Of a DNA stretch of 64,000 bases, positions 13,182 to 17,138 are shown piece after piece (position 1 is the stretch's first letter; each line of letters starts with the position of its first letter). Source of the DNA: [Clostridium] aerotolerans DSM 5434 (GTDB lineage: Bacteria > Bacillota > Clostridia > Lachnospirales > Lachnospiraceae); assembly GCF_000687555.1 (NCBI RefSeq), contig NZ_JHWJ01000018.1:1-64000 (forward strand), given 5' to 3'. The notes beneath the pieces were generated by a model. That model ran no database searches. It worked only from the letters and a program-made list of their open reading frames with translations, and was not told the origin of the DNA. The translations under genes and the position numbers were made by a program.

Positions 13182-13319
13182 AAAAAAAGCCGTCCAGTCA
13201 TGCGGTAACCAGTACGGCTCTCTTGCAGGAGTCATGATCCTTCACGGGTCAAATGAAGGATGCAATCAGAGGGTTAGTCTGATTTAGAATATTCACACGC
13301 AGTTAGCCAAAACTAACTG
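13182..13319 (-). ncRNA. Small RNA gene, copy 1 of a two-copy family (undescribed)
   Basis: On the minus strand a ~138-nt transcript is predicted from its own promoter (13325-13353). Four hairpins follow: CAGTTAG/CTAACTG at the 5' end, ATCAGA/TCTGAT, TCCTTCA/TGAAGGA, and a terminator AGCCGT/ACGGCT followed by TTTTTTT. Between them are invariant single-stranded stretches CGTGTGAATATTCTA and GGATCATGACTCCT, the latter complementary to a Shine-Dalgarno sequence. The copy at 16966-17104 has the same layout and length, with paired base changes in the first stem (C-G versus T-A) and terminator stem (A-T versus G-C). I do not recognise an Rfam family. Confidence 0.7.
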
Positions 13320-13324
13320 TATTT

Positions 13325-13353
13325 ATATTACCATAATATGATTAAAAATGCAA
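13325..13353 (-). promoter_or_regulatory. Promoter of small RNA copy 1
   Basis: On the minus strand TTGCAT (13353-13348), 17-nt spacer, TAATAT (13330-13325). The predicted start coincides with the first stem of the RNA at 13319. Confidence 0.65.
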
Positions 13354-16965: not shown

Positions 16966-17104
16966 AAAAAGGCCGTCCTTGTCATGCGGTAACAAGGAGG
17001 GCCTTTTCGTAGGAGTCATGATCCTTCATGGGTCAATGAAGGAGAATCTCAGAGGGTTAGTCTGATGTATAGAATATTCACACGTAGTTAGTGTCGGCTA
17101 ACTA
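16966..17104 (-). ncRNA. Small RNA gene, copy 2 of a two-copy family (undescribed)
   Basis: Same architecture as 13182-13319, 139 nt, minus strand: 5' hairpin TAGTTAG/CTAACTA, hairpin TCAGA/TCTGA with loop CTAACCC, hairpin TCCTTCA/TGAAGGA, then a strong terminator in which GGCC and TCCTTGT pair with ACAAGGA and GGCC, followed by TTTTT. The loop GTTACCGCATGAC and the linkers are identical to copy 1 while stems differ in a paired way. It is convergent with the GH31 gene and divergent from the AraC gene, so it cannot be a leader of either. On the plus strand the same hairpin could help end the GH31 transcript. Confidence 0.7.
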
Positions 17105-17109
17105 ACCTT

Positions 17110-17138
17110 ATGTTAGCATAGGGACAAGAAAAAATCAA
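17110..17138 (-). promoter_or_regulatory. Promoter of small RNA copy 2
   Basis: On the minus strand TTGATT (17138-17133), 17-nt spacer, TAACAT (17115-17110). Distance to the first RNA hairpin is the same as in copy 1, although the promoter sequence itself differs. Confidence 0.6.

Follow-up and report, generated by a model that had tools for sequence, protein, structure and literature searches.

Small RNAs (sRNAs) that lower the levels of iron proteins during iron starvation include RyhB in enterobacteria and IsaR1 in cyanobacteria, the latter of which acts on ferredoxin I. Their regulators, Fur and FurA, are other than the one predicted for the RNA considered here. According to the account in PMC9410917, FsrA of Bacillus subtilis is a Gram-positive iron-sparing sRNA that uses a C-rich motif on Shine-Dalgarno (SD) regions. 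The same account describes IsrR of Staphylococcus, which has two operator boxes in its promoter, C-rich single-stranded regions, mRNA targets that encode iron enzymes, and conservation across the genus. In Mycobacterium tuberculosis, MrsI is described as an iron starvation sRNA whose promoter contains an IdeR box (PMC8628891). For Clostridioides difficile, PMC6311696 reports that flavodoxin is increased and ferredoxin-dependent pathways are decreased under low iron, and that fldX is repressed by Fur. Ferredoxin occupies a central position in clostridial energy metabolism, and a switch away from it, if true, would lie at the core of clostridial electron flow. Little work seems to have been done on small RNAs in Lachnospiraceae, a large family of gut bacteria: searches of open-licence papers returned almost nothing on them and no report of the present RNA.

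The RNA occurs in two copies in [Clostridium] aerotolerans DSM 5434, within a stretch of 64,000 nucleotides (contig NZ_JHWJ01000018.1, positions 1 to 64,000) that is referred to as the window. The best explanation, to which we give a probability of about 0.82, is that it is a DtxR-type-controlled, iron-sparing, trans-acting sRNA that would silence ferredoxin and rubrerythrin. The family, its promoter, an operator-like box, the regulon marked by this box, and the conserved complementarity to mRNAs were all computed. Copy 1 (c1, 16966-17104; alignment, fold, and genus homologues) lies between a GH31 gene and the gene of an AraC-type regulator, and copy 2 (c2, 13182-13319; alignment, fold, and match to c1) between an esterase gene and a topoisomerase gene. 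Both are on the minus strand, and c2 was recovered from the own genome using c1 as the query. They align over approximately 140 nt from promoter to terminator, with the invariant linkers and loops that a sequence-only reading of this DNA had described. Transcription probably starts at ~17103-17104 and ~13318-13319, respectively. On the evidence of sequence and a promoter survey, c1 has a -35 element TTGATT (17133-17138) and an extended -10 element (TATGC)TAACAT (17110-17115), and c2 has TTGCAT (13348-13353) and TAATAT (13325-13330). The exact 17-nt spacing noted in that reading is present in both copies and is conserved; an automatic rule (TTG, 17 nt, extended -10) recognized 51 of 52 distinct homologous upstream regions, and the single exception (L005) fails on the TRTG motif only. 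Intrinsic terminator hairpins with T runs, likewise already recognized, end both copies (16966-17007 and 13182-13222) and have the loop ACCGCAUGAC. The computed folds beat 200 of 200 dinucleotide shuffles for c1 (z -5.97) as well as for c2 (z -4.63).

Homologues were found by DNA search in 24 of 25 genomes of the genus and in 6 of 200 genomes of the family, the own genome counted. The covariance search that had been proposed as a check returned 10 of 396 family genomes with model R1 (own genome and one genus mate counted, G246 among them discounted) and 6 of 294 genomes of the order with model R2 (all Lachnospiraceae, G027 among them discounted). The discounted matches, L044 in G246 and L121 in G027, are iron-box hairpins without the linker; they were rejected as homologues and are still inside these tallies. 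A pattern scan of named genomes picked up 32 stretches, from Lacrimispora, Hungatella, Brotaphodocola, Clostridium sp., and metagenome-assembled genomes. Since the scan pattern contained the linker and half of hairpin 1, the invariance of both in that set is partly a product of selection; the same invariance is also seen in the BLAST and R1/R2 matches. Genes next to the sRNA are common within clades and different between clades, a predicted ORF of at least 100 aa overlaps the RNA in 3 of 43 loci, and no plasmid or phage match was found. In Clostridium sp. HBUAS56010 (L012/L060), two tandem sRNA copies lie ~200 bp apart. A hairpin of type TATAGGAAATTGCGTCCTATA recurs just 3' of the sRNA terminator in several genomes (L058, L057, L075), and at L066 the Clostridiales-1 RNA (Rfam RF01699; 3664-3839) is found ~3.3 kb from the sRNA.

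The statement that no known family matches was borne out by Rfam, which gave no match at the gathering score anywhere in the window and left the RNA unmatched in eight loci of relatives. At E values up to 10, 3 and 12 matches were listed, all far under cutoff; the best of them, RefA9, reached 25.0 bits against a cutoff of 49 and lies on the other strand. The family is absent from Rfam and, with the function predicted here, new within the kind of iron-sparing sRNAs.

From its 5' end, the RNA consists of hairpin 1, a conserved single-stranded linker, hairpin 2, hairpin 3, a second linker, and the terminator. The first linker is ACGUGUGAAUAUUCUAUACAUC in c1 (17064-17085) and is shortened in c2 (13281-13300). 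Hairpin 2 (17049-17065 and 13265-13285) has the loop UAACCC(U), identical in both copies. The second linker (17008-17023 and 13223-13241) contains the anti-SD-like motif ACUCCU, invariant in an alignment of 25 homologues (A3). Hairpin 3 (17022-17044 and 13237-13261) shows the compensatory stem changes of a structured RNA: two-sided changes occur at all six pairs, 92.7% of the aligned cells are paired, and the loop UGACCC is nearly constant. Two forms of the RNA can be distinguished: type A, seen in Lacrimispora and Hungatella, has hairpin 2, and type B lacks it. In some type B rows, a bulge disrupts two of the outer pairs of hairpin 3. The sRNA of Hungatella effluvii (L042, ~1465-1575; also L055) has an insertion of ~110 nt between linker and hairpin 2, which bears repeats of the CTTAGTG/TTTCACGA type.

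Hairpin 1 behaves differently from hairpin 3. The paired changes between the two copies, which had been taken as a sign of selected RNA structure, are indeed present in both the first and the last stem; for the first stem, however, this interpretation did not hold. Its outer pair (T-A/C-G) is non-canonical in 13 of 25 homologues, so the change there says little in favor of an RNA structure. The five inner pairs, which form the motif GTTAG-N6-CTAAC (17087-17102 in c1, at the transcription start, and 13302-13317 in c2), are invariant in 25 of 25. Because these pairs are invariant while hairpin 3 varies at all six, the first stem is probably chiefly a DNA operator, not a covarying RNA stem. As a general caution, a perfectly conserved hairpin at the 5' end of an RNA may be a DNA operator.

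A genome-wide scan points to the regulon to which this operator would belong. GTTAG-N6-CTAAC occurs at 23 sites in the own genome, compared with 4 sites when the motif is reversed as a control. Of the 23, two belong to the sRNAs, 4 lie inside ORFs, and 17 are intergenic. Iron-, metal-, or siderophore-type genes adjoin 16 of the 17 intergenic boxes, the one without a recognized neighbor being C1:260649. The neighbors include a ferric-reductase-like gene, FecCD and Peripla_BP_2 genes (four sites), DUF3793-flavodoxin, FeoB with a DtxR-type gene, an ABC ATPase with a SufB-like gene, Fe/Mn superoxide dismutase, and a second DtxR-type gene some 300 bp off. A further site is ambiguous, as it is flanked by the FUR gene on one side and by an HD-domain gene on the other. 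Five AraC-type regulators also lie behind iron boxes. L095 has a Peripla_BP_2 part that exceeds the Pfam cut-off, L087 and L089 have one that falls below it, and L093 and L098 have none, L093 adjoining a Peripla_BP_2 gene; these regulators are perhaps siderophore-sensing. DUF3793 itself, found behind iron boxes before flavodoxin or adjoining the sRNA (L083, L100, L107, L108, L050, L041; the assignment is from Pfam for L050 and from similarity or inspection by eye for L041 and L107), is a candidate iron-limitation gene. An earlier idea of a MarR operator was dropped once the box proved to mark iron genes.

In three other genomes, box and control counts were 13/6, 10/0, and 2/3. Twelve loci examined there cover 13 of the 25 sites, and three more sites are sRNAs. 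Seven of the twelve loci concern FeoB, FecCD, DUF3793 (three, two of them with flavodoxin), AhpC, and ZIP; the other five are not clearly iron genes. A second box covers the -35/-10 spacer, 25-26 bp upstream of the first, in 19 of 52 distinct sRNA loci; by our own sorting of loci, it is present in 17 of the 18 placed outside the genus and in 2 inside. The DUF3793-flavodoxin promoter of Hungatella (L108) has the same tandem layout of two boxes.

PMC8464063 gives a published IdeR consensus, TTAGGTTAGSCTAACCTAA, and proposes a 14-bp single-dimer form, TTAGGNNNNCCTAA; the geometry TTAG-N6-CTAA equals the IdeR/DtxR half-site spacing described there. With this half-site pair in its promoter, the sRNA is a predicted member of a DtxR/IdeR-type regulon, and its box, identical to those beside iron genes, is the predicted operator of an iron-sensing repressor. 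Proteins of the DtxR family are encoded in the genome, with Fe_dep_repress/Fe_dep_repr_C domains in L085 and L094.

Candidate targets were sought in 864 kb of DNA (stretches totaling 800 kb, plus the window) that contained 821 predicted ORFs, and among Fer4 genes of the whole genome, of which 26 leaders from the 30 best of 55 matches were used. The main candidate encodes a ferredoxin of 56 aa and 2[4Fe-4S] type (Pfam Fer4, two stretches). This gene has, in our reading, its own -35/-10 upstream. Its leader, AAATGTATAGAATATAAGGAGG, contains an exact 13-nt complement of the c1 linker (17065-17077), which ends just before the SD. None of 718 background genes of at least 100 aa pairs as well with the linker within -30 to +25; the single background ORF with a 14-nt match, C1:18363, was set aside, as the match looks like coding sequence of a mis-started ORF. 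With c2, the ferredoxin duplex is weaker (-12.6 vs -20.8 kcal/mol for c1).

Of 18 sRNA-bearing genomes, 13 have an exact complement of 13-15 nt to the consensus linker just before the ribosome-binding site of ferredoxin, as do none of 11 genomes in which the sRNA was not detected (Fisher 1.3e-4, for related genomes with no kinship correction); some genomes' own linkers pair over a shorter length than these consensus-based counts imply. The 18 genomes represent seven genera, and the 13 represent six. The site is absent in four genomes (G203, G206, G216, G218) and imperfect in G172. In the controls (11 genomes, 12 loci, no R2 match), the longest complement is 7 nt. When each genome's own linker was used, the mean duplex energy was -13.3 kcal/mol in the 18 genomes, against -6.3 kcal/mol in the 12 control loci with the consensus linker (P 1.9e-4). 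Of 400 composition shuffles, no more than 2% equaled the real linker in 11 of the 18 genomes and in 0 of the 12 control loci.

A held-out test was based on a prediction, made beforehand for type B, that AATGTATAGAATAT precedes the ferredoxin SD. Ten genomes were searched, and nine had the gene. The exact form is present in one of the nine (L274). It carries a one-base insertion in L277, L281, and the partly masked L280, and a two-base insertion in L279. L278 has a 13-nt match that is shifted along the linker, L276 one of 12 nt, and L275 one of ~10 nt that lies farther upstream, beyond the 45 nt that were scored; no ferredoxin-leader match was found in L282. The mean duplex energy in the nine genomes is -12.5 kcal/mol, lower than in the controls (P 3.2e-4), and in four of the nine the linker is equaled by no more than 2% of shuffles. 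The result is support with drift, not exact confirmation.

A second site of pairing is suggested by the loop of hairpin 2, AACCCUC, which complements GGAGGGUU with one terminal G-U pair. GGAGGGUU is the SD of rubrerythrin (Pfam Rubrerythrin) in the own genome, rank 3 of 821, and c1 and c2 pair with it equally. It is found at the rubrerythrin SD in 16 of 16 sRNA-bearing genomes that keep the loop, 15 by the automatic start rule and the sixteenth (G132) with another start; 13 of these 16 belong to one genus, so that few independent events are represented. It is present in none of four sRNA-bearing genomes without the loop (G033, G149, G274, and G172, which has a distant rubrerythrin paralogue only), in none of ten genomes without the sRNA, and at -20 to -1 of 3 of 718 background genes. 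The trans-acting role proposed in the sequence-only reading is probably right, but the ACTCCT linker that it pointed to is not the best-supported seed: the linker GUGAAUAUUCUAUACAU, for the ferredoxin leader, as the main seed, and the loop AACCCUC, for the rubrerythrin SD, as the second, are better-supported candidates.

The complementarity of the sRNA to mRNAs of iron-containing proteins, as predicted from these alignments, is conserved at the ferredoxin and rubrerythrin leaders. Fe-S genes as a class (the 26 Fer4 leaders described above, and also a regex set of 15) showed no clear enrichment; the best of five tests gave P 0.02, which is not significant after five tests. Further candidate pairings, with names assigned by eye, involve two FNR/NfnA-like reductases (C2:74270 and C2:28354), a Fer4 aldo-keto reductase (C2:231234), and a glycyl-radical activase-like gene (C4:116052). 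Ferritin was rejected as a target: its linker complement (rank 2 of 821) overlaps the apparent -10 of the gene (TTGAAT-17-TAGAAT) and is patchy in the readable relatives, the leaders of 6 of 17 loci not having been found by the script. In the own-genome ferritin promoter (L197), GTTAGAATATAGTAAC lies over the apparent -10, one base from an iron box.

Other explanations bear on both the control and the targets of this RNA. The DtxR-type protein beside feoB is nearest to MntR among solved structures (PDB), more than to IdeR, and one box in G132 precedes a ZIP transporter, as would be expected if an MntR-like repressor controlled the sRNA in response to manganese. We regard this as unlikely, as the box regulon comprises iron uptake, siderophore, flavodoxin, and Suf genes, and as the half-site spacing is that of IdeR/DtxR (PMC8464063). 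The match between linker and ferredoxin leader could alternatively reflect a transcription-factor DNA site, present in opposite orientations downstream of both transcription starts, with no RNA-RNA pairing. Indeed, the palindrome GAATATTC is part of this stretch, and in the sRNA and ferredoxin genes alike the stretch directly follows the promoter. However, the ferredoxin site abuts the SD, and the 11-mer TGTATAGAATA occurs at three other places in the 864 kb and Fer4 loci, none recognized as a promoter-SD position. Several type B leaders moreover have insertions of 1-2 bases inside the match while the RNA side is constant, which argues against an operator because a bulge suits RNA pairing better. 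Such a shared DNA site appears quite improbable.

Conserved loops of hairpin 3 and the terminator on changing stems would also fit a protein- or ligand-binding sponge RNA, which would sequester a protein through its several loops with ACC (UAACCC, UGACCC, ACCGC). We know of no partner protein, and we consider this very improbable given that the most conserved part of the RNA is a linear linker with a conserved mRNA complement. A short mRNA for a conserved peptide is the least credible of these alternatives. Within the genus, an ORF of 15 codons that reads (V/L/M)(R/K)DHDS... is found repeatedly, but the longest complete ORF ranges from 3 to 38 codons per distinct sequence (15 in 27 of 47), and the peptides differ among examples outside the genus and partly within it (VNILY..., MTPIK...).

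For the iron-sparing sRNA, we infer the protein that binds the box, the response to iron, the transcript itself, and the block of translation. When iron is present, a DtxR/IdeR-type repressor on GTTAG-N6-CTAAC at the transcription start would keep the RNA off; in most relatives outside the genus, it would also sit on the second box between -35 and -10. Under low iron, the RNA would be made along with iron uptake genes and flavodoxin, all of which bear the same box. The conserved linker would then pair with the ferredoxin mRNA in its 5' leader, directly before the SD, and the hairpin-2 loop with the rubrerythrin SD. This pairing would block translation of both proteins, and the net outcome would be a ferredoxin-to-flavodoxin switch that saves iron. 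We also lean, with less assurance, towards a fuller scheme in which one DtxR-type box derepresses flavodoxin directly and shuts off ferredoxin via the sRNA, the operator is itself the 5' hairpin, and the copies split the work, c1 with the full ferredoxin seed and c2 with a shortened one. Iron control, the regulon, and the function are additions to what had been read from the sequence before. These results supply a promoter, a likely type of regulator, and two predicted targets, and relatives that lack the sRNA can serve as natural controls, so that post-transcriptional iron control becomes directly testable in this family.

Among the systems introduced above, FsrA resembles the present RNA in its Gram-positive, iron-sparing nature and its C-rich motif; it differs in that it is Fur-controlled and helped by FbpABC (PMC9410917), and the present RNA matches no Rfam sRNA family. 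The emrB-Lactobacillus RNA (Rfam RF02971) weakly matches the promoter and hairpin 1 at 17.4 bits, far under the cutoff of 60.8, and the common part is only a palindrome after a -10-like stretch. MrsI is alike in its IdeR box and its link to iron starvation; it is actinobacterial and targets bfrA/hypF with a 6-nt seed, and its operator is not described as part of the RNA in the account of PMC8628891. An operator that doubles as the 5' hairpin, as predicted here, is likewise not described for FsrA or IsrR in the account of PMC9410917. IsrR is alike in its promoter boxes, C-rich single-stranded regions, iron-enzyme targets, and conservation, a likeness taken from its description; the boxes of IsrR are Fur boxes (PMC9410917), whereas the present RNA has one box as hairpin 1 and uses an A/U-rich linker as its predicted ferredoxin seed.
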